Shown here: piece by piece, positions 19,260 through 47,429 of the stretch | How the letters are laid out: each line of letters starts with the position of its first letter | Position numbering within the stretch: position 1 is the first letter of the stretch | Source of the DNA: Desulfocapsa sp. | GTDB lineage: Bacteria > Desulfobacterota > Desulfobulbia > Desulfobulbales > Desulfocapsaceae | DNA length: 64,000 bases | Assembly (NCBI GenBank): GCA_022712895.1 | Contig: JAFLJS010000045.1 | Span: forward strand, 26,747 to 90,746 | Direction: 5' to 3' | The notes under the pieces: model-generated | Told to the model about the DNA's origin: nothing | The model's database searches: none | What the model saw: the letters and a program-made list of their open reading frames with translations, nothing else | Made by a program: the position numbers and the translations under genes

Positions 19260-19495
19260 TATCATCATACTTGACAACGATATGAATAATTATTAGAAAA
19301 AAGATACGATTCAATGAGACGAACGAGAGTGGTTCCCTTGTGGGAACCGATGCTATGCTTTTCCGTTTGGTGTATTATTTGCTGTAGACAGGTTCGAGTT
19401 AAAACTAACACCGGTGATGAACGGTAAGCCGGCATAAGTATCTTAGGGAGTGTTTTTTTTAAAAGCACAAGAAAATATTCTGTAAGGTACTAAAC

Positions 19496-19625
19496 AGCTA
19501 CCCTGTAAAGGGACTGCTTGCTATGGGCTAATTCGTACTGCCATCATAGACAAGCTGCAATGACAACGCAGCTTGTATCTTTATATAACCGAGCTGCCGG
19601 GAAAAGGCAGGTCGGTTTTTTGTTT
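19496..19625 (+). ncRNA. Candidate structured leader (riboswitch/attenuator), copy A, upstream of PTPS operon
   Basis: AGCTACCCTGTAAAGGGACTGCTTGCTATGGG core; hairpins CCCT/AGGG, CTATG..CATAG, ACAAGCTGC/GCAGCTTGT; terminator ACCGAGCTGCC-GGGAAAA-GGCAGGTCGGTTTTTT. Confidence 0.7.
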
Positions 19626-19823: not shown

Positions 19824-20192
19824 ATGTTCGAATTGAAGGTAAAGACCTGGTTTGCAGCGGCACACAGGTTAACTATGGTTGGTAAAAAATGTGAAAATCT
19901 TCATGGCCATAACTGGAAGATAGAAGCGTGCATTATTGGTGAAAAGCTCAATGAAGGTGGTGTATTAATGGATTTTGGAGAAATTAAAAAGTATATTTCC
20001 GAAATAATGAACCAACTGGATCACAAATATTTAAACGAGATGGATACTTTTACAAAATCGGCTCCTTCTTCTGAAAATATTGCTCTGCATATTGCCCAGG
20101 AACTCCAGAAAAGAATAACAGATCCGTTAATCCGTGTATCCCGGGTATCTGCGTGGGAATCGGATAATTCTTGTGCAACGTATATTGCTTAA
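19824..20192 (+). CDS. 6-pyruvoyl-tetrahydropterin synthase/QueD family (COG0720)
   Basis: AAAHRLTMVGKKCENLHGHNWKIEA; MDFGEIK; LDHKYLNE; ENIA motifs. Confidence 0.9.
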   Translation: MFELKVKTWFAAAHRLTMVGKKCENLHGHNWKIEACIIGEKLNEGGVLMDFGEIKKYISEIMNQLDHKYLNEMDTFTKSAPSSENIALHIAQELQKRITDPLIRVSRVSAWESDNSCATYIA

Positions 20193-20310
20193 TCAGAAAT
20201 ACAAATAGAGATCAGGAACATGAAAGCTTTCTCCTGAAGAGTGTTCCCTGTAAACAATTGATGTCCTGCATTAAAGAGGAGAGGGCATCATTTAACCCAA
20301 CCGACACGAA

Positions 20311-21765
20311 GTGAAAATGTTAGAAAAAAAGAATTTTAACATGACCACAGATGAATTTCGTCATCACGGTAGAGCAGTTATTGATTGGATTGCCGACTAC
20401 TACGATACAATAGAATCTTTTCCTGTTTTATCTCAGGTGCAGCCAAATGAGATTCGATCGTCACTTCCTGCGGAGCCACCTCACCAGGGTGAAAAGTTTG
20501 AAAATATTCTGAAGGATGTTGATAGCCTTCTTCCCGGAATAACTCACTGGCAATCTCCTAATTTTTTTGCTTATTTCCCCGCCAATACTTCGGGACCATC
20601 AATATTGGCTGAACTTCTTTCCGCAGGTCTTGGAGTGCAGGGAATGCTGTGGTCTACAAGTCCTGCCTGTACCGAGCTGGAAACCCATGTTCTTGACTGG
20701 CTAGTGAATATGCTGGGGCTGCCGGAGAAATTCAAATCAACGGGGAAGGGAGGGGGAGTAATTCAGGATTCTGCCTCAAGTGCGGTTCTCTGTGCTCTTC
20801 TAGCTGCTCGCGAGCAAAGCACAAATTATGAGAGTAATGAAAAAGGATGCGATCAGCATCTTGTTGTCTATGCTTCTACCCAAACCCATTCCTCCATTGA
20901 AAAAGCTGTTAAAATTGTCGGTCTGGGGAAGCAGAATCTACGCTTAATCCAGGTGGATGAGGATTTCGCATTACGCCCTGATAAACTTCTTTTGCAAATC
21001 AAGAAAGATCGCCAGGACGGGTTAATCCCTTGTTTTGTTGTTGCGACAGTGGGAACAACATCATCCAATGCGATTGATCCATTGTCAGAAATTGGCAATA
21101 TCTGCAGAGAGGAGAATCTTTGGCTTCATGTTGACAGCGCTATGTCAGGTACGGCTGCCCTGTGTCCAGAGTATCGGTATCTCAATGCAGGTTTGGATTT
21201 GGCTGATAGTTATTGTTTTAATCCGCATAAGTGGATGTTAACCAATTTCGATTGTGATTGCTTCTATGTGGCTAATCGAGCGATACTGAATAAAACCCTG
21301 AAGGTCTTGCCGGAATATTTACGCAATAAGGCAACAGAATCCGGCGATGTCATTGACTATAGTGATTGGGAGATTCCCCTGGGTAGACGTTTTCGTTCCC
21401 TGAAACTGTGGTTCGTAATCCGTTATTACGGCATAGAAGGCTTACAGCAACATATCAGACACCATATCAAAATGGCCCAGGATTTTGCTGGGTGGATTGA
21501 TGACTCAGAACATTTTGAACTTGCAAACCTGGCTCCGTTGAATCTGGTTTGTTTTAAACATTTGGGAGGAGACTCATTTAATCAACATTTACTGGAACGT
21601 CTCAATCAGAGCGGCCATTTGTTTTTAACGCACACTATTCTCAATGGTCAATATGTTCTGCGTTTCTGTGTTGGACAAACCCACACTGAAGAACGCCATG
21701 TCAAACAGGCCTGGTTGCATATTCAGGAAACAGCAGCAAAACTTGAAAACATATTACAAGAGTAA
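20311..21765 (+). CDS. PLP-dependent group II amino acid decarboxylase (aromatic/tyrosine decarboxylase-like)
   Basis: GITHWQSPNFFAYFPANTSGPSILAELLSAGL...; LADSYCFNPHKWMLTNFDCDCFYV (PLP lysine). Confidence 0.88.
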   Translation: MKMLEKKNFNMTTDEFRHHGRAVIDWIADYYDTIESFPVLSQVQPNEIRSSLPAEPPHQGEKFENILKDVDSLLPGITHWQSPNFFAYFPANTSGPSILAELLSAGLGVQGMLWSTSPACTELETHVLDWLVNMLGLPEKFKSTGKGGGVIQDSASSAVLCALLAAREQSTNYESNEKGCDQHLVVYASTQTHSSIEKAVKIVGLGKQNLRLIQVDEDFALRPDKLLLQIKKDRQDGLIPCFVVATVGTTSSNAIDPLSEIGNICREENLWLHVDSAMSGTAALCPEYRYLNAGLDLADSYCFNPHKWMLTNFDCDCFYVANRAILNKTLKVLPEYLRNKATESGDVIDYSDWEIPLGRRFRSLKLWFVIRYYGIEGLQQHIRHHIKMAQDFAGWIDDSEHFELANLAPLNLVCFKHLGGDSFNQHLLERLNQSGHLFLTHTILNGQYVLRFCVGQTHTEERHVKQAWLHIQETAAKLENILQE

Positions 21766-21776
21766 GTAATAAATTT

Positions 21777-23690
21777 ATGAAACGATTGCCAGAACACGAA
21801 ATACGATCTTTAACCAACGCCTTAGCCGATACGGATGAGTTTGTTTTTCTTGAGAGCAGCAGGGTAACCGGAGAAGAGAATCGTTCGCTGCTCTTTACCA
21901 AACCATTGACCTGGTTGGAATGTACAGCCATGGATCAGGTGGAAGACTTTTTGGCGGAGGCCGAAAAATGGCGAGCCAAAGGGAAATACCTTGCCGGATG
22001 GATTGCTTATGAGTTCGGCTATCTGTTAGAACCCTCACTGCGTCATCTATACGGATGCAAAAAACGTTCTTCTCAATTTAGTGGCAACCTTGCAGTTTTT
22101 GGTGTTTTTGACGAGCCAGTCATTTTCGATCATTCCACGAATACTTTCCTCAATAATGGCAATTGGCCTACGACAACAGTGGAGAGTGAACAAGACTACC
22201 AGATTGATAATATGCAGACCAATATTGGTCATGAAGAGTATTTATCAGCCATCAATCGTATTAAAGAATATATTTCTGCGGGACACACCTACCAAGTCAA
22301 TTACACGATGAAGCTGAACTTTTCTTTCGGCGGATCATTTGCAGCGTTATATCGCGCCCTACGACGTAATCAGTCGGTTTCCTATGGCGCCTGGATAAGA
22401 TATAACAACCGGGATATCATGAGCTTTTCACCGGAGCTTTTTTATCGGGCAGATAAAAAAAATATCACGGTTCGACCTATGAAAGGGACAATGGTTCGGG
22501 GCCGAACCACCGAGGAAGATGATAGCAATCGGCTACTGTTGCAGAAAGATCCCAAGAATCGCAGTGAAAATATAATGATTGTCGATCTGCTTCGCAACGA
22601 TCTTGGCAAGTTGCTTTATCAGATCAATAACGGCAGGGTGGAGCCAAGATCTCTTTTTGATATTGAGACCTACGAAACACTCTTGCAAATGACCTCTACA
22701 ATTGATGGGGAACTGGATACAGATCGCCAGCTGGGACTGCAAGAAGTCATCAAATCAATATTCCCCTGTGGCTCTATCACCGGTGCTCCGAAGATTCGCA
22801 CAATGGAGATTATCCATGAGTTGGAAAAAGAGGAGCGTGGAGTGTATTGTGGTGCCATTGGTTACAGTGGGCCTTCCGGTACGATTTTTAATGTACCTAT
22901 TCGTACTTTGGTTCTGCAAAATGGCCATGGTGAAATGGGCATTGGTGCAGGTATTATCCATGATTCAGATCCTGAAGGGGAATGGCAGGAGAGTCTGCTG
23001 AAAGGCAACTTTTTGACTCAACCCATACCAGAATTTCAGCTTATTGAAACTATCCTCTGGAGACCTGAATCTGGCTACTGGCTCTTGAAAGAACATCTGC
23101 AACGACTTGCAGATTCGGCCAGTTATTTTCTGTTTTCCTGCGAGCTGGATGCAATTGAGCACCTTCTTAAACAGAAGGTGGATTCCTGTACAATAACGCA
23201 GCGAGTGCGGATTCTGTTGCACCGTGATGGCAAGCTGGAGATTAGCATGACAGAATTGCCAGACTGTAAACCGTTTGATCCTCTCCAGCCTATTGTATCA
23301 ACACCACTGCCTGTGGTTTCTTTTGCCGAACAACAGATAGATTCAGATTCTCGCTATCTATTTCATAAAACCACCATGCGCCAGATCTATAATGATGCAC
23401 GAGAGAAAGCTGGAGAGCAAAAACTGTTTGAAGTCCTTTTTACCAATAAGAAAGGCGAGGTGAGTGAAGGATGTATAAGCACTATTTTTATTAAAAAAGA
23501 TGGGGAATTGTTAACTCCGCCAATTCAATGTGGGTTGTTGAATGGAACTCTTCGACGGTTTTTACTGGAACAGGGGACTATTCGGGAACAGGTTCTGAGT
23601 AGAATGGATGTAGACAGTGCAGATGCCGTATATATTGGAAACTCAGTAATGGGAATGGTACAGGTAACAGTACGAGACGAAAATTTTTAA
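21777..23690 (+). CDS. pabB: Aminodeoxychorismate synthase component I fused to aminodeoxychorismate lyase-like domain (PabB-PabC)
   Basis: Chorismate-binding motifs (SFSPELFYR, RPMKGTMVRG, SIFPCGSITGAPKIRTMEII) plus C-terminal class IV aminotransferase-like region (FEVLFTNKKGEVSEGCISTIFI). Confidence 0.9.
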   Translation: MKRLPEHEIRSLTNALADTDEFVFLESSRVTGEENRSLLFTKPLTWLECTAMDQVEDFLAEAEKWRAKGKYLAGWIAYEFGYLLEPSLRHLYGCKKRSSQFSGNLAVFGVFDEPVIFDHSTNTFLNNGNWPTTTVESEQDYQIDNMQTNIGHEEYLSAINRIKEYISAGHTYQVNYTMKLNFSFGGSFAALYRALRRNQSVSYGAWIRYNNRDIMSFSPELFYRADKKNITVRPMKGTMVRGRTTEEDDSNRLLLQKDPKNRSENIMIVDLLRNDLGKLLYQINNGRVEPRSLFDIETYETLLQMTSTIDGELDTDRQLGLQEVIKSIFPCGSITGAPKIRTMEIIHELEKEERGVYCGAIGYSGPSGTIFNVPIRTLVLQNGHGEMGIGAGIIHDSDPEGEWQESLLKGNFLTQPIPEFQLIETILWRPESGYWLLKEHLQRLADSASYFLFSCELDAIEHLLKQKVDSCTITQRVRILLHRDGKLEISMTELPDCKPFDPLQPIVSTPLPVVSFAEQQIDSDSRYLFHKTTMRQIYNDAREKAGEQKLFEVLFTNKKGEVSEGCISTIFIKKDGELLTPPIQCGLLNGTLRRFLLEQGTIREQVLSRMDVDSADAVYIGNSVMGMVQVTVRDENF

Positions 23691-23715
23691 TATAATAACA
23701 TAAGAGTATAAGATT

Positions 23716-24558
23716 ATGACACAACTACAGCATTTATTGAAAAATGATCGCCCAATAATTATGGGCATACTCAATTTGACGCCAGACAGTTTTTCTGATG
23801 GCGGCAGTTATACCGATATAGGCAAAGCCGTATGTTTTGCTTTGGAAATGGTAAATGAAGGAGCGGATATAATAGATGTGGGCGGCGAATCAACCCGGCC
23901 GGATTCCAAGAGAGTGACTCCAGCAGAGCAGCTTCGGAGGGTTATTGAAGTCATTACAACTCTCAGGCAAACCTTACCCAGAGATATTCCCATAAGTATT
24001 GATACCACTTGGGCGGAAGTTGCTAGAGCTGCAATTTTGGCGGGTGCCTCTATTATAAATGATACCCGTAGCGGGCGTGATGACGATGGGATTTTTGAAT
24101 TGGCAGCAGAAAAGAAAGTGCCCATTGTTATGATGCATATGCAGGGAATCCCCCAAACAATGCAGAACGATCCCTCTTATAAAGATGTTGTTGGGGAGGT
24201 AAAAGCATTTTTACTGGAACGATGTGAAATAGCAAAAGAGAAAGGTGTTCTTCAGGAGAACCTTATTATTGATCCAGGTATTGGTTTTGGGAAAACTCAG
24301 GAGCATAATCTGCAACTCATGGCACAGCTTGAGGAATTTACAGCAACTGGATACTCTGTTTTGCTTGGCACGAGCCGTAAAAGATTTATGGGGACAGTCT
24401 GTGCCGGAGCAAAGCCAAATGATCTGATTGGTGCCACATGTGCAACGACCGTTATTGGCGTCAATGCCGGTGTCAGAATCTTTCGCGTTCATGATGTGAA
24501 ACCAAACCGCCAGGCTGCGGATATCGCATGGACTATTAATTCCTGCAACCATACATGA
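23716..24558 (+). CDS. folP: Dihydropteroate synthase
   Basis: IMGILNLTPDSFSDGGSY; DVGGESTRPDSKRV; IDPGIGFGKTQEHNLQLM; GTSRKRFM. Confidence 0.95.
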   Translation: MTQLQHLLKNDRPIIMGILNLTPDSFSDGGSYTDIGKAVCFALEMVNEGADIIDVGGESTRPDSKRVTPAEQLRRVIEVITTLRQTLPRDIPISIDTTWAEVARAAILAGASIINDTRSGRDDDGIFELAAEKKVPIVMMHMQGIPQTMQNDPSYKDVVGEVKAFLLERCEIAKEKGVLQENLIIDPGIGFGKTQEHNLQLMAQLEEFTATGYSVLLGTSRKRFMGTVCAGAKPNDLIGATCATTVIGVNAGVRIFRVHDVKPNRQAADIAWTINSCNHT

Positions 24559-24580
24559 TGGACTTTTTACGAGTCCATCA
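24556..24580. repeat. Palindromic hairpin with TCGTAAAAA loop (REP-like)
   Basis: TGATGGACTTTTTACGAGTCCATCA; loop shared with ends of the 160 bp repeats. Confidence 0.5.
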
Positions 24581-24601
24581 TACATAGGCGACATACCTTT
24601 C

Positions 24602-26029
24602 ATGAAAGAACATATCCTGTTTTTAACCGGAAAACTTGCCAGAAAAAGTCTTGAGCGAGTCATGAAATCTATTCAAGCTGAAGAGTTCAGTTATGAAATT
24701 CATACTCTTCCGATCACGGTTGCCGCTTTGGTGACCACGGACATGATCTTGCGTCAGTTAGATGATGCAAGGAACGCCGATCGTATCATTATTCCCGGGC
24801 TGTGTATTGGGGATTTGAATAAGGCCAGCGAAACCCTGGGAGTCCCTGTAGAGAGAGGCCCCAAAGATCTCAAGGAGTTACCCGTTTTTTTTGGAAGAGG
24901 AGCTCAAGAGCCTGATCTTAGTAGCTATAATGTCAGAATTTTTGCTGAAATTGTTGATGCGCCAGACATTACAATTAAAGCGATTCTGGAGCAGGCTGCC
25001 AACTACCTGGCAGATGGTGCTGATGTTATTGATATTGGCTGTTTACCTGGCAAAGATTTTCCTCATCTTGAGGATACTGTTAAAGCACTGGTTGCGGAAG
25101 AGTATACTGTCAGCATAGATTCGGTAGATCCAGAACAACTCATATGTGGTGCTCAAGCAGGTGCTCGGTATCTTTTAAGTCTTAAGGAAAGTTCGCTTTG
25201 GGTTGTTGACGAAGTGGATGCGCTCCCCATTTTAATTCCAGAACAACCGGAGGATATCGAGTCTTTGTACCGGAGCATTGATATTCTCCAAGATCAGGGA
25301 AAGCCCTTTATTGCAGACAGTATCGTTGATCCGATCCACTTTGGCCTTGTTCAGTCCATCGTTCGCTACCATAAACTCAGGTTAGATTATCCGGAGATTG
25401 AACTCATGATGGGTACAGGTAACCTGTCGGAGCTTACTGAGGCCGATACCGGTGGTATCAATAGTCTACTGCTGGGTATGATGTCTGAATTAAGAATCAA
25501 TAATCTCTTGACCACTCAAGTTAGTCCCCATGCAAGACGGAGTGTGGCAGAGATTGATTTAGCCCGTCGAATCATGTTTCGAGCAAAAGAGGATCATTCT
25601 TTACCTAAAGGATATAATAGCGGTCTCATGAGCTTACATGACAGAAAGCCGTTCCCATACGATGCTGAGGAAGTCAGAGAAATATCACAGCAGGTCAAAG
25701 ATTTGAATTTTCGTATTCAAGTGACCAAAACCGGGATTCACATTTATAATCGTGATGGCCTGTTCACTGCCACCGATCCGTATGAACTTTTTAACAATCT
25801 TCCTCTGCTTAAGGACAATGCACCACATGCCTATTATATAGGAGTTGAACTTGCACGCGCCCAAATTGCCTGGCAGCTGGGGAAGCATTATGTTCAGGAT
25901 GAAGAGTTAGACTGGGGGAGTGCTTACAAAGCGTACAGTAATAGCGGAATTGATTTACAAATGAGCTATAAAGCAGAGTCTTCAACCGTGAAGGCCAGAA
26001 AAAAACGGCGCCGAAAGAAGAACGACTAA
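24602..26029 (+). CDS. Dihydropteroate synthase-like protein (DUF6513/DHPS-related, H4MPT-associated)
   Basis: ILFLTGKLARKSLERVMKSI, DRIIIPGLCIGDL, LADGADVIDIGCLPGKDFPHLEDTV, ELMMGTGNLSELTEADTGGINSLLLGM. Confidence 0.82.
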   Translation: MKEHILFLTGKLARKSLERVMKSIQAEEFSYEIHTLPITVAALVTTDMILRQLDDARNADRIIIPGLCIGDLNKASETLGVPVERGPKDLKELPVFFGRGAQEPDLSSYNVRIFAEIVDAPDITIKAILEQAANYLADGADVIDIGCLPGKDFPHLEDTVKALVAEEYTVSIDSVDPEQLICGAQAGARYLLSLKESSLWVVDEVDALPILIPEQPEDIESLYRSIDILQDQGKPFIADSIVDPIHFGLVQSIVRYHKLRLDYPEIELMMGTGNLSELTEADTGGINSLLLGMMSELRINNLLTTQVSPHARRSVAEIDLARRIMFRAKEDHSLPKGYNSGLMSLHDRKPFPYDAEEVREISQQVKDLNFRIQVTKTGIHIYNRDGLFTATDPYELFNNLPLLKDNAPHAYYIGVELARAQIAWQLGKHYVQDEELDWGSAYKAYSNSGIDLQMSYKAESSTVKARKKRRRKKND

Positions 26030-26069
26030 ATAGCAGGTTGTGGTAATGCAAATAAATCATGAGGTACTT

Positions 26070-26903
26070 ATGTCATCCAGCTCTTCTCTTATTGATTATC
26101 ATCTTCATACCTGTTGCTCCAGGGATGGTAGTGGTGAAGTGATTGATCACTGTAAAGAAGCTGTCAAAAGAGGCTTTAGGGAAATTTGTTTCACAAATCA
26201 CCAGGAGTGGATATCGGTAGTGGGAGGTTTTTACGATTATGCTATGCGTAATGAAGGATGGGAACAACACCTGCATGACATTGAGGCGGCCAGAAAAGAA
26301 TTCCCGATGCTTTCTATAAAGCTGGGCTGTGAAACTGGGTATTATCCAGAATATCTAGATGATATTATACGATTTACTAAGCGGTTTCCTTTTGATTATA
26401 TTATCGGCAGTGTTCACTCTCTAGAAGGCATAATGCTGGATGATAAAACAATTTCAGGCAATACAAGCAGCACTGTTCAGATACAATGGATGAGGAAGTA
26501 TTTCTCAGCAATTAAAGATATGGTGAAGCACTCTTATTTTGACTGTATTGGACATCTTGATCTTGTAAAAAAACATATCCCGCGGCATGGAGATGATGAG
26601 TATCAAGATCTCATTCAGGATATTGCTGAAACAATGAATGATAATGATATTGGCTTTGAGTTGAATACCAGTGGCTGGCATCAATCGCCACAAGATTGTT
26701 ATCCGGCTGTGAGTCTTTTGAAGATCTTAAAAGACGCTGGCATAAGAAAAGTCGCTATTGGCTCAGACTCTCATTCGCCGGAAACTCTTGGTCAAGATAT
26801 CCAAAAAGGTCTGGATCTTCTCAAACGGGTTGGTTTTGATTCAGTTTGCACTTTTTCAAACCGAGTTCCAACTTACCATCCGCTGCCAATACAAACACAC
26901 TAA
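26070..26903 (+). CDS. PHP-domain phosphoesterase (histidinol-phosphatase-like)
   Basis: LIDYHLHTCCSRDGSGEV; FDYIIGSVHSLEG; FDCIGHLDLVKK; AIGSDSHSPETLGQ. Confidence 0.85.
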   Translation: MSSSSSLIDYHLHTCCSRDGSGEVIDHCKEAVKRGFREICFTNHQEWISVVGGFYDYAMRNEGWEQHLHDIEAARKEFPMLSIKLGCETGYYPEYLDDIIRFTKRFPFDYIIGSVHSLEGIMLDDKTISGNTSSTVQIQWMRKYFSAIKDMVKHSYFDCIGHLDLVKKHIPRHGDDEYQDLIQDIAETMNDNDIGFELNTSGWHQSPQDCYPAVSLLKILKDAGIRKVAIGSDSHSPETLGQDIQKGLDLLKRVGFDSVCTFSNRVPTYHPLPIQTH

Positions 26904-26931
26904 TTGGGAGCCAGGTTTTTTGAATGAATCG

Positions 26932-27513
26932 TTAGCGTAAGCAGTCAATGAGTAGTGAATGCATCAACGTTTCATATTTGGAACCCGGTGCCACTTTTTT
27001 AATAACGCGGTGGTTTTCTTTCAAAAGGCTTTCCAGTTTTTTCTTTGGCAGCAGATTTTTTCTGGTGGATACAATTAGACTTTCGAGCATAAGGCTTTTG
27101 GCACGATTAGTGAACTCACCGTCATTACGGATGGTGATGTGAACAACTTTCGCCTCAAGCAGAAAACGATTTTTCTTTTCCACTATGTTTTTTAATTTTA
27201 CTTCAACGCTTGATGAAGAATGCATTAGTACAGGGGCATTAATCATTTCTGCTGAATGGAAATGTATATTTTCTTTAGAGTAGAGCGCATTGTAGATAAT
27301 GGCTGGATCGTCAACTGCATTAAGGGCGAATTCCTTAGCAGCCAGGATGTTTTTGAGAGTGTTTGAACCCTTGAATATTTCAAGAGTAATTGTTTCAAAA
27401 TCTTCGACTCTCATCCCAAAAGGAGCAGCATGAGGCACTTGATGGTCATAGCTGGAAATAATAACTTCATACAGCCATTTTTTCTTCAATCCCAAGGACT
27501 CTAATGTATTCAT
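26932..27513 (-). CDS. DUF447-family protein (flavin-reductase-like fold)
   Basis: YEVIISSYDHQVPHAAPFGMRVEDFETITLEIFKGSNTLKNILAAKEFALNAVDDPAIIYNAL. Confidence 0.75.
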   Translation of the reverse strand: MNTLESLGLKKKWLYEVIISSYDHQVPHAAPFGMRVEDFETITLEIFKGSNTLKNILAAKEFALNAVDDPAIIYNALYSKENIHFHSAEMINAPVLMHSSSSVEVKLKNIVEKKNRFLLEAKVVHITIRNDGEFTNRAKSLMLESLIVSTRKNLLPKKKLESLLKENHRVIKKVAPGSKYETLMHSLLIDCLR

Positions 27514-27629
27514 TTTATTCCTTATATAGACAGTGTTGTGATTTGAAATGTATTGTTATTGTACGCTGCTAATGATAAAATACAGTTGTTGTTAAACACT
27601 ATGAATTCCATTTTAAACAGGTATATATT

Positions 27630-28343
27630 ATGCAATTACTAATCAGTGTAACAAATACTGAGGAGGCACAATCAGCGGCTGTTGGAGGTGCTGATATCGT
27701 CGATATTAAAAACCCTTCAGAAGGAGCACTTGGTGCCAATTTTCCCCATATTATTCGAGCCATCCGTCAGGAAATAGCTACAGAAATCCCTGTAAGTGTT
27801 GCCATTGGTGATGCACCAAATAAGCCGGGAGCCACCGCCTTGGCTGCCTTAGGGGCGGCTAGTTGTGATGTCGAATTTGTCAAAGTAGGACTCTATGGAA
27901 CCAGTACCACCCGGCAAGCTGTTTTCCTGCTTAAAGAAGTATGTCGGGCAGTCAGGGACTATGATAGTGATATAAAAATTATTGCTGTAGCCTATGCTGA
28001 TGCTCATAAAATAGGGGCCTTTCCAGTTATGGAGTCTCCAGCAGTTGCAGTTGAGGCTGGAGCGGATGGCTGTTTGTTGGATACAGCTGGCAAAACCGGA
28101 GATTCACTTTTTTCATACCTTGACGATAATGCATTGCGGCAATTTGTCCAGGATTGTCAGAGTGGAGGACTTATCAGTGCACTTGCTGGTTCTCTTGGTG
28201 AAGCGGATATCCCTCGTTTATTAAAGATTGGTCCAGATATATTGGGATTTCGAACCGCTGCCTGCAAAGGTGATCGAGTTACAGGCGTCATACAACGGAA
28301 ACAGGTTGAACGCTTAAAAAATCTGATTAACGGTGTAGATTAG
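27630..28343 (+). CDS. mfnB: (5-formylfuran-3-yl)methyl phosphate synthase (MfnB/DUF556)
   Basis: LLISVTNTEEAQSAAVGGADIVDIKNPSEGALGANFPHIIRAI; SVAIGDAPNKPGATALAALGAA. Confidence 0.9.
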   Translation: MQLLISVTNTEEAQSAAVGGADIVDIKNPSEGALGANFPHIIRAIRQEIATEIPVSVAIGDAPNKPGATALAALGAASCDVEFVKVGLYGTSTTRQAVFLLKEVCRAVRDYDSDIKIIAVAYADAHKIGAFPVMESPAVAVEAGADGCLLDTAGKTGDSLFSYLDDNALRQFVQDCQSGGLISALAGSLGEADIPRLLKIGPDILGFRTAACKGDRVTGVIQRKQVERLKNLINGVD

Positions 28344-28989
28344 TCCCTTTGGCAGTGCCTGTCTCAAGTAATTGCTCTAGCCGCTCAGGATAGTTTCCGT
28401 TGATCAGCCATATATCCAGGCTTGTTGTTTTGGCAATCGAGCAAAAATAATTATCCACTAACTCTTCAGAACAAGTTACTTGTGACAGGCTGGCCGTTTC
28501 CATCAAATTAGCCGGACTGGTAGCGCTTTTACTATCAGTAAATAATCCGTCTACGCTTTTTAACAAAATCAGTTGTCTGGCTCCGGCAAGATCTGCGAGC
28601 CAGGCTGCAATGGAATCTGAAGTTACATCCCAGCTTTTAGGTAGTACGTCAGTTTGCGCAAGGAAATGATACGGCAGCAAAATTGGTATCTTTCCAGAGG
28701 ATATTGCCATGCGAGCAGCATCTAAGTCCTGTACCAATTTGCTGTTTTCTATCATTGAGGCCAGAAGATGCCCGTACTGATCCATAGCCAATATGGACAT
28801 CCAGTGTCCAGCATCTTGTGCAAGACCGAAACGTTGCTCATAGTTCCTGACCGTATTGGCAAAAATCCCTCCACCAGGGATAAGTAATATCTCATATCGA
28901 GTGGCAAAGTTCGATATGGTTTGCAGGAGGTTTTGCAAATTGCTGCTTTCCCCGAGGCTTCCTCCCACTTTTATAACTGTTTCAATCAT
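28327..28989 (-). CDS. mfnE: Amino acid kinase family protein, MfnE-like
   Basis: ETVIKVGGSL, ILLIPGGGIFANTVR, HWMSILAMDQYGHLLA, SWDVTSDSIAAWLADLAGARQLILLKSVDGLF. Confidence 0.82.
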   Translation of the reverse strand: MIETVIKVGGSLGESSNLQNLLQTISNFATRYEILLIPGGGIFANTVRNYEQRFGLAQDAGHWMSILAMDQYGHLLASMIENSKLVQDLDAARMAISSGKIPILLPYHFLAQTDVLPKSWDVTSDSIAAWLADLAGARQLILLKSVDGLFTDSKSATSPANLMETASLSQVTCSEELVDNYFCSIAKTTSLDIWLINGNYPERLEQLLETGTAKGTNLHR

Positions 28990-28990
28990 G

Positions 28991-29155
28991 ATAAACTCGT
29001 AAAAACCCAGAATTTAGATGGTTAAGTATTTATGCCCTTTGTTCGGGTGAAAACTTCATATCCGAGGCGCAAATATTTTATATCATTTCAGCGTACTAAG
29101 GTACGTCGTAATGATATAAAATGTGCAGTAACGAAGGAGATGGAGAGTTTTACGA
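28991..29155 (+). repeat. Dispersed 160 bp repeat, copy R1
   Basis: ACTCGTAAAAACCCAGAATTTAGATG...CGAAGGAGATGGAGAGTTTTACGA; nearly identical to reverse complement of 51068-51230. Confidence 0.85.
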
Positions 29156-29160
29156 CGCCA

Positions 29161-30222
29161 TCAATCATCAAAATCAGTGTTTTTGCTTTGAACCAATAAA
29201 TACGCCACAGCATATGCCGGAAGCGCGGTCAACGGCCACGGGCAGTCATTGTGGTTACGATCAATTGTTGAGAGCCCTAAACGTCTGACCACTTCTTGGG
29301 TTAAAAAGTGCCCTGAACCTATTAAGGTAACTGAAAAATCAAAGCTATCCTGTAAAGCGGATAACACCAGAAGAACAGACTCTGTGATTTGTTGAAGTTG
29401 TTTTTCGAAAATATAGCAGGCCATCTTTTCCAGTTCTTTTCCGCTCAAAATTTCGCAATCAGCACAGATCAGTCTGGCAAGTCGCTCCTGAGCAGCAAGA
29501 ACAGTCTTGGCCCTGCCATCCGGTGTCGGGCAACTATATGACTCTGGACTGATTTTGCCTAGAATAAGGTACACGTCGGCCATACAGGTAAAATATTCAG
29601 CTGCAACACCACAGGATCTCCCATTAATTGGAATATGGCTAACGATCGTATTGGGATTTGTTCGTAGTATCCCACTGTAAACCAATTCTCCGCTGATTAG
29701 GCGCTGAGGATCTGTTCGACCTTGACTTATTACTTTTCCATGTTGTATCGGGATGATATCTGTAGTTGTACTGCCAATGTCGATTAAAAGACAGTTGGGA
29801 TAAAAAGACGCCAGAAACTGAGCACTGGCCAGCCAATTTGATGCAGCACATAAAAGTGGTGTTTGGTAAGCATTGTCCAGCGGCAAAAAAGAACCATCAA
29901 GACCAAAAGGATAAATGGAAGATTTTTTGAAAGCTTGTTTGACTGCATCAAGGATACAGATAACCCCTTCGCGTTTAGTGCGAAAAGCATCGGAGAGTTC
30001 GGCGGTCATTGTGACGGCTATTTTTGAGACATCTCCTCCCCCAAGCTCTCTATTTAATTCTTGAAGTAACATGCTCAACTTCTCGGGATGCTGCCATATT
30101 TCAAAAGGTTTGGCCGCGACAGAATATGTCATTACTTTCTGTCCCTGGCATTGAAGCAGTGCTGCTTTGATATTTGCCCCTCCAATATCCAAACCCAGAA
30201 TAGAAAAGCTTTTTAATTTCAT
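29161..30222 (-). CDS. mfnF: Hydantoinase/oxoprolinase-fold protein, MfnF-like
   Basis: ILGLDIGGANIKAALL, LIDIGSTTTDIIPIQHGKV; overlaps adjacent ATP-grasp gene. Confidence 0.82.
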   Translation of the reverse strand: MKLKSFSILGLDIGGANIKAALLQCQGQKVMTYSVAAKPFEIWQHPEKLSMLLQELNRELGGGDVSKIAVTMTAELSDAFRTKREGVICILDAVKQAFKKSSIYPFGLDGSFLPLDNAYQTPLLCAASNWLASAQFLASFYPNCLLIDIGSTTTDIIPIQHGKVISQGRTDPQRLISGELVYSGILRTNPNTIVSHIPINGRSCGVAAEYFTCMADVYLILGKISPESYSCPTPDGRAKTVLAAQERLARLICADCEILSGKELEKMACYIFEKQLQQITESVLLVLSALQDSFDFSVTLIGSGHFLTQEVVRRLGLSTIDRNHNDCPWPLTALPAYAVAYLLVQSKNTDFDD

Positions 30223-31241
30223 TCTGACCCCTCGTTCTTTAATAGAGCTTTTCCAGACAGACATATCTTTTGTGGAAGAATCCCTTCGATAGAAGCATCC
30301 CAGATTGCCCCTGCTAGATTGACATTGACAACTTTCCGAAGTCCAGTGTAGCTTGTTGTGAGGCGTGGATTGATCTCAATCAAGTAACATCCTTTGTCAG
30401 TTATAAGCATGTCCACTCCAACATAGCCTTTAAGCCCAGGGAGTAGAGATGCAGCACGTTTTGCCAGATCAAAAGCCTCTTGTTGTCTGCTGCAGATAAA
30501 AGGAATCTCTCCACCCTGGTAAGTGAAGGATGAGCCAATGTGTATGGATTGTTTGTTCAGGCTCAGACAGGTGATTGCATTTTTGGAAATAAGTAGTGAG
30601 ACACTCACATGGTGACCTTTGATGTAACGCTGCAATAACAAGTGGTCTTTGTAACAGCTGTATTTTTCTAAGGCCAAGAGCAGTGATGTGGTATCGTTGA
30701 TTAAACCGACACCTTCACAACCCACCCCATCAATTGGCTTGAGAACCAGAGGATAACCAATTTGCTCGGCTCTTTTTATTGCACTCTTGGTGCTGACGCA
30801 CCAGGTATCAGGTGTTGCGAGTCCGGCTTGGTGGAAAATCCGGTAACAGTCCCATTTATTAGCTGCTTTGGCAATACTTCCAGGACTACTGCCAAGGAGT
30901 TGGACTTTTTGCTGCTCCATTAACAGGCTTAGGCGTTCCAAGATACCATCACTTTCAGGCGCAATAATCAAGGCTGCTGTGCATTCTTTGCTAAGGTGTT
31001 TCAGGGTCTCATAATGGTTAGAGGAATCCAGGTCGACTACACGGTCAGCAGGTAAAGAGAAAGCAGTTAAGCGCTGATCACGAGTGGTGGTGACTGTTGT
31101 TTTTCCCCAATCTCTGAAATCAGCCAAGATTGTCCGTAGCATGGACAGGCCTTCGGCCATTAATTTTTCTGGTAGTTTATGATCAGGCCATCCACCACCA
31201 GAAATATATTCGTGGATTAAAATATTAGGAGTCGGTGTCAC
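30219..31241 (-). CDS. mfnD: ATP-grasp ligase, MfnD-like (tyramine-glutamate ligase family)
   Basis: ILIHEYISGGGW N-terminus; YPLVLKPIDGVGCEGVGLI; YLIEINPRLTTSYTGL; GTG start. Confidence 0.83.
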   Translation of the reverse strand: MTPTPNILIHEYISGGGWPDHKLPEKLMAEGLSMLRTILADFRDWGKTTVTTTRDQRLTAFSLPADRVVDLDSSNHYETLKHLSKECTAALIIAPESDGILERLSLLMEQQKVQLLGSSPGSIAKAANKWDCYRIFHQAGLATPDTWCVSTKSAIKRAEQIGYPLVLKPIDGVGCEGVGLINDTTSLLLALEKYSCYKDHLLLQRYIKGHHVSVSLLISKNAITCLSLNKQSIHIGSSFTYQGGEIPFICSRQQEAFDLAKRAASLLPGLKGYVGVDMLITDKGCYLIEINPRLTTSYTGLRKVVNVNLAGAIWDASIEGILPQKICLSGKALLKNEGSE

Positions 31242-31242
31242 T

Positions 31243-31977
31243 ATGCAAATTATTCCTGTTTTGGATCTGATGAAGGGTCTTGTTGTACATGGTGTTAAAG
31301 GAGAACGCGAGCAGTATCAACCGGTAAAAAGCCTTTTGACTGCCAGTGCGAATCCCCTTGAAATAGCCAATGCTCTCCACATGGAAACAGAGTGCCATTC
31401 TCTATATATCGCAGATTTGGATGCCATTCAAGGGACTGGAACCAACAAAACTGTAATCAAAGAGATAGCATCTCAATTGGATATTAAACTATGGGTGGAT
31501 GCAGGCACTGCTGACCTGGAATCCGTAATTCAATTATTTGAAACAGGTGCAGATGTTGTAATCATCGGTTCAGAGACATTGACATCATTACAGCAGCTTA
31601 GGTCCATATATGATTTAATCCCAAGAGAAAAGATACTATTTAGTCTTGATATAAGCAAAGACCTTGTTCTTTCCCGTTCGACAACCCTGCAAGGTATTAC
31701 TCCACTGAAGGCATTGAGAATTTTAACAAGAGAGACAGGAGGGAATCGCTTTATCCTTTTAACTCTGGATGCCGTTGGTACGGCAAATGGGCCTGATGTT
31801 TCCCTGCTCGAGAATGCAAAGTGTGAATTCCCCTCAGCTACATTTATAGCTGGAGGAGGAGTAAAAACAGCTGCTGATCTCAACGCATTATCTGGAGTTG
31901 GTGCAAACGGTGTCTTAGTAGCAACCTCACTTCATAATGGTTGGATTACAGGCCAAGACCTCTCGTCTTTTCGTTAA
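31243..31977 (+). CDS. HisA-related (beta/alpha)8 barrel protein of H4MPT clusters
   Basis: IIPVLDLMKGLVVHGVKGEREQYQPVKSLL; LYIADLDAIQG; FIAGGGVKTAADL. Confidence 0.85.
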   Translation: MQIIPVLDLMKGLVVHGVKGEREQYQPVKSLLTASANPLEIANALHMETECHSLYIADLDAIQGTGTNKTVIKEIASQLDIKLWVDAGTADLESVIQLFETGADVVIIGSETLTSLQQLRSIYDLIPREKILFSLDISKDLVLSRSTTLQGITPLKALRILTRETGGNRFILLTLDAVGTANGPDVSLLENAKCEFPSATFIAGGGVKTAADLNALSGVGANGVLVATSLHNGWITGQDLSSFR

Positions 31978-32821
31978 TGGGGGAGACGTCCTCTTCAACA
32001 AAATAGGCAAACAAGACTGCGGCTATCAGATCTGCGGTGGTGCCAGGGTTCAAGCTATGTTTTTCGTCCCGCAGGTCAAAATCAAATTTTTGAATTTCTC
32101 CCTTATCGCCAAAGATCCCGCCTTTTTTTATTATACGTTTGGCTCTATTGGAGATCTGTTGAGCGACCTCCTTCCCATTTTTCCGGGCAATCAGAGTATC
32201 CGGCACTTCAGCAAGGATTGAGAGAAATGTCTGAACAATTGCCTCTGGCAAAGGAACCCCTTGTGCGAGGGTCTTTTTCAGAGCAACAAGGCCGATTGCA
32301 AAGGTTATGTTGTAAGTGGTTACATACTCTCTGGATATTGTGTCTCTGTCACGTGCCACTTCCATAGCCTGCAATAGAGTTATATCCGTTGTCGTTTGGT
32401 TCAGATCGTAGCGCTGTGATGTCCCCATTCCAGCAGGTTTTGCCAGACGTATAGCTTGATATGCCAGTTGTGTATCATCAACTGTTAAGTTTTGCAAAAC
32501 CGATCCGACAGCAGACTGGAGACTCACAGAGGGACTCAATTCTGCAGCCTTAGCCAAGGGGGCCAGAAGCAGAACAATCCCTAGATTGGTATTTACTCTG
32601 ACAAGATTTCTTGTCGCTCGAATTGCATGGAGTATGATCTCACCGACAGAAGCATTTGCTGTTGCTCTAAAGGCCGGACCTATTGCAGCAGCACTGATCA
32701 AAAAATCTTCGAAACTGGTGTCGATGAAATCCTCGTACCGGGTTACATTGCCTGGTTTATCAGCGCTGACTTCAAACAAACAAGCCCTTTCTACTGCTAA
32801 ACCGATTTTCTCAGAGTCCAT
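31946..32821 (-). CDS. CitG-like triphosphoribosyl-dephospho-CoA synthase family protein
   Basis: ACLFEVSADKPGNVTRYEDF; VNTNLGIVLLLAPLAKAAE. Confidence 0.82.
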   Translation of the reverse strand: MDSEKIGLAVERACLFEVSADKPGNVTRYEDFIDTSFEDFLISAAAIGPAFRATANASVGEIILHAIRATRNLVRVNTNLGIVLLLAPLAKAAELSPSVSLQSAVGSVLQNLTVDDTQLAYQAIRLAKPAGMGTSQRYDLNQTTTDITLLQAMEVARDRDTISREYVTTYNITFAIGLVALKKTLAQGVPLPEAIVQTFLSILAEVPDTLIARKNGKEVAQQISNRAKRIIKKGGIFGDKGEIQKFDFDLRDEKHSLNPGTTADLIAAVLFAYFVEEDVSPINEKTRGLGL

Positions 32822-32827
32822 AAAATT

Positions 32828-33700
32828 TTAACAGGTTGTCTTGAGGATATAGTTGGCCAGATAAGCAGCAGCATCAAATCCGGTCGCTTTCTGAAGCCCT
32901 TTCCAGCCCGGAATAGTATTGACTTCAATTAAAAGATACCCGCCACTTTCCAGAGGAAGGAAATCAACACCACCATAGTCGGCTCCCAAAGCTTTAACAG
33001 CCTTGATACTCATGTCTTCAAGAGTTTTATTAAGTGCTAAGCTTTTCCCTTTAGCGCCATTACAAATATTGCATTTCCAGGAAGTTCCCTGTCGTGTCAT
33101 GGCTGCTACAGCCTTTCCGTCTACAACAAAAACACGAATATCTTGGGAACCATGTGGGATATATTCCTGTAGATAAAATATATTACGATTTTGTTCGAGG
33201 GCACGGAAAACCCGATAAGCAATGTCACGATCCGTAACTCTAACCATTCCTCTTCCTTCCGAACCGAAAAGAGGCTTTACTATCACATCTCCACCCAGCT
33301 CGCCAAAGGCATCCATGGCATCATCAAAACGCTCTGTAACAATAGTGCGAGGGATTGGGATGCCTTCAGCTTTCAGCAGTGCCAACGTATAGTACTTGTC
33401 CACCCCACGCTCAATAGCATACGGCGTGTTAATTACTCTGACACCCGATTGCTCCAGACAATGCAAGGCGTCCATCCGATAAATGACTTGCTCAAGAGAG
33501 CCATTAGGGACGGCGCGGACTATCACCGCCTGATAAGACTCAAGAGGCTCACCGGCAACAACCCACTTCGTATGAGACCCCAAAGAACTGGTCAGAGCAG
33601 TTATGGGAAAACATGGGACGTCAACACCAAGGGGCTTAAACGCCGATTGTAGACTTTTAGTGTACCACGCCTCAGGTTTTCCAAGAATTGCGACTTTCAT
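32828..33700 (-). CDS. RimK-type ATP-grasp ligase (MptN-like)
   Basis: VIVKPLFGSEGRGMVRVTD; QEYIPHGSQDIRVFVVDGKAVAAM; YLLIEVNTIPGWKGLQKATG. Confidence 0.85.
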   Translation of the reverse strand: MKVAILGKPEAWYTKSLQSAFKPLGVDVPCFPITALTSSLGSHTKWVVAGEPLESYQAVIVRAVPNGSLEQVIYRMDALHCLEQSGVRVINTPYAIERGVDKYYTLALLKAEGIPIPRTIVTERFDDAMDAFGELGGDVIVKPLFGSEGRGMVRVTDRDIAYRVFRALEQNRNIFYLQEYIPHGSQDIRVFVVDGKAVAAMTRQGTSWKCNICNGAKGKSLALNKTLEDMSIKAVKALGADYGGVDFLPLESGGYLLIEVNTIPGWKGLQKATGFDAAAYLANYILKTTC

Positions 33701-34659
33701 GCCAGAAACGTTTTTTTCAAAATTTCAGGATTCACTTTGCCAGCATGAAAAACTCGACCGCTGGTTAGTTCGTTAATAAAAATTTCTGCCGGACTGAACA
33801 ATAATGGATCAATTTTGTAAAAATCGTTGTCATAGCGTTGGAAGATATCAAAAAACGAAGTGCCATAATCCTTCGAAGCTGAAGACGGGAGTTGGTTAAT
33901 AACTTCTTCTACTTTCTCCGCTTCGGTTTTTGCGATATACCAAGCCTGCCCGCCATATAAAACAGCATCATTTGTCCACCCAATTGCCCGTAGATTGTCT
34001 TTAGCAATAGGAGCAATAGGACAAGCCCCAAAGCCGGACACAATGGTAGTTATATCGAAACCAACTTCATGCATTTTATGTAAACCTGTTTCAACTACTC
34101 TGCTCGCTATTTGAATTGATCCCACCAAACTGGCTGTTGGTGCTACAAGGATAGTGACTCGTTCAGGAGCGACGTTACATTTGTCCGCTACCCAGAGTGC
34201 GACATGATCTCCTGGAAGCTTATGGCTTTCCAAAACCAGGACTGCCATATCAGCATCCTCTGCTATCGCAAGTTCTTGCAGAAGTGGTTCCTTGCCATAA
34301 AGACTTCGAGCAGGGCCTGATCCCATGGCCTGGTACGTTTTTTGATTTTCTGATTTGACTTGTACAAACCATCCGGCATATTGAGAGGCCATACAAGATT
34401 TGACAGGGTGGTCGACTGTTACGTTAACTGCAGGTAGTGAAAAGCCGTCATAATCCAGTGAACAAAAAGTGACTTTCCCCAATCCTCCCATACAGACTTC
34501 ACTAAAAAGTTTTCCAGCTTCGTATGAGCCAACCACATTGACTCCTGAGTCAATTATTGTTGCTCCACAGGGTGTTTTCTCCACGGCAATATTTAACTGT
34601 TCCGCGTTTGCTTCCATCTGTTGCGCAATCTCATTGGACCTTTGGTTAAGACTTAACAT
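33697..34659 (-). CDS. mch: Methenyltetrahydromethanopterin cyclohydrolase
   Basis: LSLNQRSNEIAQQMEANAEQLNIAVEKTPCGATIIDSGVNVVGSYEAGKLFSEVCMGGLGKVTF. Confidence 0.95.
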   Translation of the reverse strand: MLSLNQRSNEIAQQMEANAEQLNIAVEKTPCGATIIDSGVNVVGSYEAGKLFSEVCMGGLGKVTFCSLDYDGFSLPAVNVTVDHPVKSCMASQYAGWFVQVKSENQKTYQAMGSGPARSLYGKEPLLQELAIAEDADMAVLVLESHKLPGDHVALWVADKCNVAPERVTILVAPTASLVGSIQIASRVVETGLHKMHEVGFDITTIVSGFGACPIAPIAKDNLRAIGWTNDAVLYGGQAWYIAKTEAEKVEEVINQLPSSASKDYGTSFFDIFQRYDNDFYKIDPLLFSPAEIFINELTSGRVFHAGKVNPEILKKTFLA

Positions 34660-35512
34660 GAATAAAAATCTCCCCTTTTCCTAATGCGTTTATGTCGCCG
34701 GAATAGCGTTCGTATGATTTTCCAGTCATGTCCGATTCAAACACTATTCCTAATTCCTTCAGGTACTTTAATAGAATCCCTATAAATACTGGTTGTACTA
34801 TTGCTTCATAACGATATGTGGGTAACAGTGGTTCACTGCTGCCAAATGAAATAATAGAACCTCGTTTCATTCCCGCACCAGCTCTTTTGGCCAAATGGCC
34901 AAATACCAGGATCGATCCGGCAATCATCCTTGCTCCTGCAAAATCTCCCACATCTCCCAAAACAGCTATTATCCCACGGCGCATACATGCCCCCAGCTCT
35001 AAGCCAGCATTTCCCTCGACAATTATAACACCATGATTAACGCCCTTATTTTCTCCGGGAAGGGCCGATCCGGTCTGATGCCCGGCATTCCCTTTAATCC
35101 AGAGAAGACCGCCTTGCATATTTATTCCGGCTTTATCTGCAGCGTTGCCTCTGATGACAATTTCACCGCCAGCCATAGATGCACCCACATGCCTTCCCAC
35201 ATCGCCATGGACGACTATCTTCCCGGAAGTCATTTTCGAGCCTATCTTTTTTACATTGCTGACATCATCTTCAATGGTAATAAAGTCAGATTTCTCACCA
35301 TCTATGCTAAACAGTTCTCCAAGCCGCATCTTTCGCCGGCCATAATAAACAGGTAAGTCGTAGATTTCTCTATAACTACGTTTAACAAACAGGTCAGGAC
35401 AGATGCTTTCTGCTTCAATTGGAATCGTCGTCGGTTCCTTCAGGCGCAAAACTATATCATCTTTTATTCCTGCAATTTCTTGATTGAATCCAACGCAAGA
35501 TACACAGCCCAA
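34646..35512 (-). CDS. fmdC: Formylmethanofuran dehydrogenase subunit C
   Basis: Repeated GxxGxxxGxxMxGGxIxIxGNA beta-helix motifs (GDVGRHVGASMAGGEIVIRGNAADKAGINMQGG). Confidence 0.92.
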   Translation of the reverse strand: MGCVSCVGFNQEIAGIKDDIVLRLKEPTTIPIEAESICPDLFVKRSYREIYDLPVYYGRRKMRLGELFSIDGEKSDFITIEDDVSNVKKIGSKMTSGKIVVHGDVGRHVGASMAGGEIVIRGNAADKAGINMQGGLLWIKGNAGHQTGSALPGENKGVNHGVIIVEGNAGLELGACMRRGIIAVLGDVGDFAGARMIAGSILVFGHLAKRAGAGMKRGSIISFGSSEPLLPTYRYEAIVQPVFIGILLKYLKELGIVFESDMTGKSYERYSGDINALGKGEIFIHVKS

Positions 35513-35632
35513 AATGTAACCTCCTATTATTTCGTGTTCTGCTCGACTCTAAAGAGGTGGCGACCAGAATGTTTTACTCTCTATCAATCATCACCAAGAC
35601 GAATCATAGACTACCAACGAAGCAATCCCTAT

Positions 35633-36520
35633 TTAAGCACTCAAGATTTTATGTAAGTGAAAGTGGTACTGACCAAGTTTCCCTCCATAATTTCCTGCGG
35701 TGATTTTTAAGATCCCTGGTAAACATGCTGCCCTGATACCTTCGCACATGGATTGACGCACAGCTTCTTCATCCACTCCATCTATTACGATTTCCAAAAC
35801 TGAATTAACACCAGCGGGCAGGTCAGCACCAACTTGACGTTGAATAGACGGGCAGTAACTAGTGTTCACAGAGACATGCTGACCTTTATATTTTGAACCG
35901 ATTTTACTACCACTGCGTACGATCCCTCCGGGAAATGGCATTATAATACCGGGCAGCTTTTTCATCACTTTTACTGCTTTTTCTGCTGCAGCCAGACACA
36001 CCTTTTGATTCTCTGCCAAGATGAAAAAGTTACCTCCTCCAACGGCACTGCAAACATTGAACTTCTCCTCAATAACAAATTCACCGTCCATCATGGGAAT
36101 TCGCCAGAAGCGACGGTTATTAATCAACTTACTACTTTGAAAACCATCGCCAAAATAGCGCAGTTTACCCCCGATTGTTACAGGCTTTCCACCTTCCATT
36201 CCATTATAACAAGCAGAAGTTGGTGAGGTCATAACACACTGACCCAGACGGTTAAGTAACTGCTTTTCCATTTCTTTGCGCGATGTCGTAAAAAACAAAG
36301 CCAACACTCCTGGCCGTCCATCCGGGGTCTGGTCGGGGGATAAAGTGGAAACAACACCCGCTTCACATCCGCATGCAATTATGGATGTTCCAAATCCGGT
36401 AGCTAATTGCGCGGCAGTTTTAGCCCATTTTTCATTAATGGCTGTTATGATTACCGTTGCCACTTTCATCCCAAAAGCTTCTGCAAAGGTATCCTCAATC
36501 TCGACTTCATTAATATGCAT
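35633..36520 (-). CDS. ftr: Formylmethanofuran:tetrahydromethanopterin formyltransferase
   Basis: INEVEIEDTFAEAFGMKVATVIITA; CMTSPTSACYNG; PFPGGIVRSGSKIGSKYK. Confidence 0.95.
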   Translation of the reverse strand: MHINEVEIEDTFAEAFGMKVATVIITAINEKWAKTAAQLATGFGTSIIACGCEAGVVSTLSPDQTPDGRPGVLALFFTTSRKEMEKQLLNRLGQCVMTSPTSACYNGMEGGKPVTIGGKLRYFGDGFQSSKLINNRRFWRIPMMDGEFVIEEKFNVCSAVGGGNFFILAENQKVCLAAAEKAVKVMKKLPGIIMPFPGGIVRSGSKIGSKYKGQHVSVNTSYCPSIQRQVGADLPAGVNSVLEIVIDGVDEEAVRQSMCEGIRAACLPGILKITAGNYGGKLGQYHFHLHKILSA

Positions 36521-36620
36521 TTTCTAAAAACTCCTTTTGAGTAACCACTCGGCTATAGAATTATGACAATGCGTAAAGGATCGTGAGCACCAAAATGAAT
36601 CATCTTTTACAGTTGATGGG

Positions 36621-36760
36621 TTCGTAAAAACCCATTTATCAGATGGCATCGTCAAAACTTCATATGCGACGAGCGTAGATTGTCTATTATTTCGGTGTAC
36701 TAGCACCCGTAATAATGACAGAAAATCTACAGCAACGAAGCAGATGAAGAGTTTTTACGG
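36621..36760 (+). repeat. Dispersed 160 bp repeat, divergent copy R2
   Basis: TTCGTAAAAACCC...AAAACTTCATATGCGACG...CAGCAACGAAGCAGATGAAGAGTTTTTACGG. Confidence 0.7.
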
Positions 36761-36771
36761 TTCCATCACAG

Positions 36772-38196: not shown

Positions 38197-38248
38197 GGGA
38201 AATCCTTTTAAAAATGATTTAACAATTAAATACTATCCATAAGAAAAT

Positions 38249-39724: not shown

Positions 39725-39733
39725 TTTATTCCT

Positions 39734-44976: not shown

Positions 44977-45010
44977 TGAGTTGTTTCTCCTTTAACTCAT
45001 AATTGTAATG

Positions 45011-46096: not shown

Positions 46097-46204
46097 ACCT
46101 CTTAGACATTTTTTAGGTCAAATGGTGCAATTTTGTAATTACAGGAAAATCTGTACACATAAATAATTGCTTGTATACATTAAGACTGTCTTAAGGGAAC
46201 ATTG

Positions 46205-46789: not shown

Positions 46790-47004
46790 GTTCTCACTCT
46801 ATAGTTGTTAAATCATTATCCAAAGTTGACCAGCTCACAAGGTCGCATAATTGGTTGAACATTTTGGATGGAATAGGGGCTCTCTTGCACATTTTCTTTA
46901 TCACTCCAAAGCTAGAACTCAGCTTAACAGTGGTTAGTACAAAATAAGCCCCTCCCATCCAGTTCCAATGTAACAATTCCTGTCAAACACATCTCAGGAA
47001 GAAC

Positions 47005-47406: not shown

Positions 47407-47429
47407 ATACGCTATACTGTATAACGTAT
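47407..47429. promoter_or_regulatory. Palindromic operator-like site
   Basis: ATACGCTATAC-T-GTATAACGTAT, one mismatch. Confidence 0.45.

Follow-up and report, generated by a model that had tools for sequence, protein, structure and literature searches.

A divergent relative of the c-di-GMP-I riboswitch is predicted upstream of both H4MPT/methanofuran operons of a Desulfocapsa genome

The c-di-GMP-I riboswitch (GEMM-I, RF01051, clan CL00126) contacts its ligand through G20, A47, A48 and C92, and its conserved P2 positions include A23, A25, G42, C44 and G45, with C44 pairing to G83 (PMC3764141). The substitution G20A admits cGAMP (PMC7288161). Among tandem riboswitches, c-di-GMP-I leaders are the commonest, with 347 doublets reported (PMC9481103). 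A further clan member, c-di-GMP-I-GGC (RF03167), retains AAA in P2 as well as GACG. The genus studied here is rich in c-di-GMP-I riboswitches (E<=1, genomes G000-G009), with 4 in the host genome, 14 in G002 and 23 in G007, and a relative from the same family (G023) carries a tandem c-di-GMP-I-GGC-like pair (L009:1190-1264 and 1570-1644, minus strand; 58.5/58.3 bits, gathering threshold 59).

The window, a 64,000 nt stretch of a Desulfocapsa sp. contig, contains three copies of a structured leader (Table 1). In copy A, two hairpins and a terminator come after AGCTACCCTGTAAAGGGACTGCTTGCTATGGG, which lies at 19496 (+), and the terminator ends approximately 200 nt upstream of the PTPS start at 19824, an arrangement that the original prediction had described. 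Across the 64 kb, the joining sequence GGGAYTGCTTGCTA is matched perfectly at exactly three sites, namely in A, in B (50221-50208, minus strand) and in C (50527-50514, minus strand), and no intergenic copies other than A, B and C were detected in the 3.68 Mb genome; the claims that the joining region is conserved and that the architecture recurs only as B and C, before the opposing C1 operon, were thus borne out. A fourth genomic occurrence of TGCTTGCTAYGG (C29) lies within a multihaem cytochrome ORF and was taken as chance. A model made from A, B and C themselves recovered all three genome-wide at E-values of 7e-19 to 5e-20, a match by construction, but none in the other genomes of the genus and family that were searched; a weak match in G280 (L010) does not contain the core motif. 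No copy was found in a plasmid collection. The core bases are near-identical among A, B and C across 20-25 nt, while stem 3 and the loops have drifted. A strong promoter consensus precedes C; in front of A and B no such sequence stands out. Readings as ANTAR, CsrA or T-box elements were dismissed as no fitting motif was found on inspection by eye.

Table 1. Positions in the window of the three leader copies, their parts and the operons that they precede.
Feature	Position	Strand	Remarks
Copy A, overall span	19494-19621	+	
Copy A aptamer-like domain	19494..19559	+	P2 and P3 hairpins
Copy A P2 hairpin	19497-19517	+	GC-UA-CCCUGUAAAGGG-ACU-GC
Copy A P3 hairpin	19520-19549	+	
Copy A stem 3	19550..19576	+	ACAAGCTGC/GCAGCTTGT; 3' arm can pair with terminator 5' arm instead
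Copy A intrinsic terminator	stem 19589-19615, T-run 19616-19621	+	CCGAGCTGCC/GGCAGGTCGG and T6
Copy B aptamer-like domain	50173..50237	-	in tandem with C, running downwards from 50237
Copy B stem 3	50156..50182	-	CCAGGCTGC/GCAGCTTGG; alternative antiterminator pairing possible
Copy B intrinsic terminator	50108..50142	-	CCGAGTTGCC/GGCAGGTCGG and T-run
Copy C aptamer-like domain	50479..50542	-	about 305 nt upstream of B, running downwards from 50542
Copy C stem 3	50454..50489	-	GCCAGGCTGC/GCAGCGTGGC and T7; is the terminator itself
Sigma-70-like promoter upstream of C	50656..50683	-	TTGACA-16-TATACT, 11/12, consensus match only
Operon under A	19824..28343	+	PTPS/QueD-like, PLP decarboxylase (MfnA-like), PabB-PabC fusion, dihydropteroate synthase, DHPS-like protein, PHP, MfnB
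Operon under C and B	28327..49984	-	DUF2193, MIP, AfpA flavoprotein, beta-RFAP synthase, MtdC-like, ATP-grasp, FwdD-like, FhcB, FhcA, MptA-HPPK fusion, GltD-like, Ftr, FhcC-like, Mch, RimK-like, CitG-like, MfnD-like, hydantoinase-like, MfnE-like

The leaders share with GEMM-I the order GC-loop-CC[hairpin]GG-GAC-GC, P3, AGCC-RGGCUGC, the variant reading GGC-UA-CCC..GGG-ACY-GCAAAGCU..ACAGCCGAGCUGCCG against GGC-AAA-CC..GG-GAC-GCAAAGCC..ACAGCCGGGCUGCC in GEMM-I. Helix names follow GEMM-I numbering, and GEMM-I position numbers on the variant copies were inferred from our own alignment. As in GEMM-I, the 3' end of the aptamer also serves as a terminator arm (UAGCCAGGCUGC, the 3' end of the aptamer-like domain, doubles as the 5' arm of the downstream stem) and tandem doublets are frequent. 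The host genome contains four RF01051 matches above threshold, so that a c-di-GMP signal is very likely present; these ordinary leaders are laid out in the same way (e.g. L070, with GCUACGGGUCUUUAGAGAUAGCCGAG followed by a terminator), and like them the variant copies have an A-rich 5' flank and no evident P1.

The operons under the leaders converge near 28.3 kb and together form an H4MPT/methanofuran island. The plus-strand operon is broken between PHP and MfnB by a minus-strand DUF447 gene (26932-27513), and one plus-strand gene (31243-31977) sits within the minus-strand operon. The latter includes a fusion of an MptA-type GTP cyclohydrolase with HPPK (pterin pyrophosphokinase; 38249-39724, minus strand), and the same fusion occurs in Synergistota (L066:5240-6703). 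The island is rare: a single one of the 395 phylum genomes sampled has DUF2193, and FhcB scored above cut-off in 2 of 291 relatives. DUF2193, whose gene (48452-49984, minus strand) heads the H4MPT operon, is mostly known from methanogens. It is a protein of unknown function conserved in these organisms (PMC9431491). Identity among the Desulfobacterota, Chloroflexi and Synergistota loci is 71-85%, which, together with its lead position in the H4MPT operon, suggests horizontal transfer and a C1 role.

Relatives of the leader were sought through a DUF2193 protein scan, giving nine loci in other genomes, followed by a whole-genome pattern search of those nine. In a Deltaproteobacteria MAG (L020), DUF2193 and MIP are preceded by two tandem copies that both have a terminator-like stem of their own, and the core is confined to those two sites in that genome. 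A Chloroflexi MAG (L030, genome G645) has the core upstream of a glutaredoxin gene that is followed by DUF2193, and in the Synergistota genome among the nine it occurs solely at the DUF2193 leader. A search around the genome of L020 gave L061, a tandem with a degenerate second copy, which lies before a Tll0287-like sensor gene with chemoreceptor genes beyond it. The proposed tie to C1/H4MPT operons therefore holds for most copies, which accompany H4MPT/methanofuran and DUF2193 genes in more than one phylum, but not for all. DUF2193 was present in 20 of 188 Synergistota genomes, among whose leaders L042, L046 and L047 have the core hairpin, the stem having A-U in L026/L046 versus C-G in L042; only the P2 hairpin is convincingly shared by the Synergistota leaders. 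In G667 the operon follows the gene order of the window (DUF2193, MtdC-like, ATP-grasp, FhcB, FhcA, MptA-HPPK). Other DUF2193 leaders (L021-L025, L027 and most from Synergistota) are without the core. Pattern matches in G638, G879, G938, G961 and L029 were rejected as lying within open frames; L059 and L060 were rejected because they do not have the P3/AGCC end. The motif GCUACCC..GGGAYYGC is invariant across distant hosts.

Two other elements were seen among these leaders. The Desulfovibrio-type leaders L022 (4040-4120) and L024 (3515-3600) have another conserved element in common (AATCACCACCGTCAAGAGG...GTCGCGGG / GCACCACCGTCAAGAGG...GTTGCGGG), which has no Rfam match at gathering threshold and may represent a further uncharacterised leader RNA. 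A second long hairpin, CGUCUUUACGGCGAG..CUUGCUGUGGAGCG, is common to the Synergistota leaders L042, L043 and L046 (approximately 1160-1240, minus strand), of which L043 has no GCUACCC core.

No Rfam 15 family, RF01051 and RF03167 included, matched around A, B or C even at E<10. The same holds for THF-I/II, Moco, ZTP, SAM and cobalamin riboswitches, which the original prediction had set aside and whose likeness to these leaders is limited to a position near pterin or cofactor genes. Its exclusion of c-di-GMP riboswitches was not supported. RF01051, an aptamer-only model with a gathering threshold of 35 bits, matches L030 in register at 25.8 bits, which is under threshold and corresponds to E=0.21 over 4227 families or approximately 5e-5 for a single family; RF01051 had been named as the candidate ahead of this result. 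In the reverse direction, a model from seven variant copies with the terminator stem included matched approximately 17 RF01051 loci of the order at the right place, and at E<=0.001, in sets of 125 and 126 genomes, every match besides the variant copies was a GEMM-I leader. Two of its matches (G023) were antisense and terminator-driven at 33-34 bits; since a terminator stem alone reaches such scores, this model was kept as support only and a further model was built from the aptamer part alone. This aptamer-only model, made without any window sequence and run on 156 kb, placed window copies B (E=1.5e-4) and A (E=1.7e-3) at the top, followed by three ordinary GEMM-I RNAs (0.06-0.11) and a Synergistota copy (0.23), with copy C absent from the matches.

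A profile of 29 GEMM-I aptamers was also scored against dinucleotide shuffles (2000 each). Shuffles scored as well as the true sequence in 4 cases for B, 1 for C, 4 and 1 for the two L020 copies, 11 for L061 and 0 for L030 (p from 0.006 to <0.0005). Copy A alone was indistinguishable from shuffles (231/2000, p 0.12), and the Synergistota copies were separated weakly (0.03, 0.10). On these sequence comparisons the aptamer domain is homologous to GEMM-I beyond chance, A taken alone excepted. Across the seven copies, 17 pairs were aligned with 96.6% of cells paired, against 94.2% in shuffled alignments, none of which was as high, and 18-45% in a slid-partner control; an alternative aptamer alignment (A7) was left out of the modelling because P3 was misplaced. 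Two pairs, one in P3 and one in stem 3, change on both sides from A-U to G-C. The number of double-change pairs is not above shuffles, and the P2 pairs are invariant across the seven copies. As the shuffle control also ignores relatedness, support from covariation is modest.

An independent orphan class whose ligand is a pterin, methanofuran or a C1 metabolite, with the likeness to GEMM-I due to convergence of a short hairpin and a terminator, would agree with the strong tie to H4MPT/methanofuran and DUF2193 operons, with the absence of an Rfam match for A, B and C and with the loss of A47/A48 in the window copies. We regard it as improbable, because the aptamer-only tests connect this RNA to GEMM-I in both directions and the 5' and 3' core segments, their order and spacing and the expression platform agree with the GEMM-I leaders of the host genome. 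Moreover, L061 has no C1 genes behind it, and a pterin or C1 ligand is favoured by gene context alone. The prediction of a new class is therefore upheld as regards a conserved, structured, attenuator-type leader that is absent from Rfam and has compensatory changes, but not as regards an unrelated one: it is a previously unrecorded, strongly changed relative of c-di-GMP-I rather than a wholly new class.

A P2 hairpin with the GC pair, internal loop, CC/GG stem and the 3' strand corresponding to GAC-GC is present in 7 of 7 main copies and in those from Synergistota, with the internal loop altered from AAA/GAC to UA/ACY. In contrast to GEMM-I, every copy has A23 replaced by U and A25 by C (the latter pairing with G42), every member has an extra pyrimidine between C44 and G45, and P3 is short with a 3' bulge; scores are below gathering or undetected. 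Copy C also has U at position 44. A, B, C and L061 carry adenine at position 20, as does the 3',3'-cGAMP riboswitch (GEMM-Ib), but L020, L030 and Synergistota have G, unlike GEMM-Ib. The GEMM-Ib end ACAGCCGRGCUGCCG of Geobacter sequences presumably also resembles the 3' end of the variant; to our knowledge, the remaining core changes are not a GEMM-Ib feature. The J2/3 adenines A47/A48 are present in L020, L061 and L030, and the window copies have one U in their place. C92 is retained after P3; the sequence around it is UAGCC/CAGCC in B, C, L020 and L030, UAGAC in A and AGGCC in L061. The binding pocket is thus probably altered in A, B and C, and with A at position 20 and the stacking adenines lost from the window copies, specificity may have shifted. 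A sub-case of GEMM-I descent in which specificity is unchanged, i.e. an ordinary c-di-GMP-I riboswitch with the same ligand and mere sequence drift, is possible but somewhat unlikely: it fits the retention of G20, A47, A48 and C92 in L020/L030 and the c-di-GMP signal expected in the host, but does not account for A23U, A25C and the extra pyrimidine in every member, nor for A47/A48 loss in the window beside an A20 of the kind that admits cGAMP (PMC7288161).

Stem 3 varies among A, B and C with pairing kept, as had been claimed, apart from a single G-G mismatch in C. Its proposed identity with the terminator applies to C, where the T-run stands directly on it, but not to A and B, in which stem 3 is distinct and a second hairpin with a T-run comes downstream. 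The antiterminator suggested at the outset, CTGCTTG with CAAGC, comprises 5 bp and is weak (-6.0 to -6.7 kcal/mol), but a stronger alternative exists in A/B, where the 3' arm of stem 3 can pair over 8-9 bp with the 5' arm of the terminator (-13.5/-13.9 kcal/mol), equalled by 11/5000 and 9/5000 shuffles. Since this pairing competes with stem 3 itself (-13.7 kcal/mol in A, -15.0 in B), stem 3 would act as an anti-antiterminator. In plain MFE folding, stem 3 together with the terminator is preferred. When the 5' arm of stem 3 is held open, B folds into the antiterminator and A does not, making the call on mechanism weaker for A. Mutually exclusive aptamer, antiterminator and terminator pairings are thus predicted on thermodynamic grounds.

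Taken together, these data point, with a probability of roughly 0.78, to A, B and C being a divergent riboswitch of the GEMM-I clan that would control both H4MPT/methanofuran operons by transcription attenuation. Against this stand the lack of an RF01051 match for A, B and C, the shuffle-like score of A, the mispair in stem 3 of C and the absence from the window copies of A23, A25, A47 and A48, all of them strongly conserved among c-di-GMP-I riboswitches. Without ligand, stem 3 would close and transcription stop. Ligand binding would hold the 3' end of the aptamer, so that stem 3 stays open and the operon is read. As this end is the 5' arm of stem 3, whose closed form would be the OFF state in all three copies, and as the terminator arm overlaps it and an antiterminator is possible in A/B, an ON switch appears most likely. 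Having C and B one after the other would make the response sharper, an effect that has been proposed for other tandem c-di-GMP-I leaders. The ligand would be a cyclic dinucleotide or a similar purine compound.

It is improbable that a GEMM-I-derived leader no longer senses a ligand and now works as a simple terminator/attenuator, or else responds to a protein or to ribosomes. The loss of A47/A48 and the changed position 20 in A, B and C would suit such decay, as would the UAGAC end of A in place of UAGCC, but the near-identity of the A/B/C core while stem 3 and the loops drift, and the invariance of GCUACCC..GGGAYYGC in distant hosts, point to continued selection. Reading by ribosomes is further opposed by the short ATG frames, which are found in A and B (ATG-GGC-TAA, ATG-GGA-TAG) and missing in C; a leader peptide was rejected, as no reading frame is common to A, B and C.

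Altered-pocket variants of known riboswitches have been a route to several new ligand specificities, with precedents in guanine to 2'-dG, c-di-GMP to cGAMP and guanidine to ppGpp/PRPP (PMC9295807). The present variant stands out by its specific common core changes and its tight gene context. It is unlikely, though conceivable, that the GEMM-I scaffold was re-tooled, with the P2 loop reshaped and the intercalating adenines dropped, into a distinct class whose ligand, neither c-di-GMP nor cGAMP, is tied to H4MPT/methanofuran C1 metabolism and which is horizontally shared with DUF2193 operons among Desulfobacterota, Chloroflexota and Synergistota. No paper in the literature searched links such an RNA sensor, the H4MPT/methanofuran pathway and DUF2193. 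On the reading as a divergent GEMM-I riboswitch, a cyclic-dinucleotide-type RNA sensor would be linked to the archaeal-type H4MPT/methanofuran pathway of bacteria and to DUF2193.
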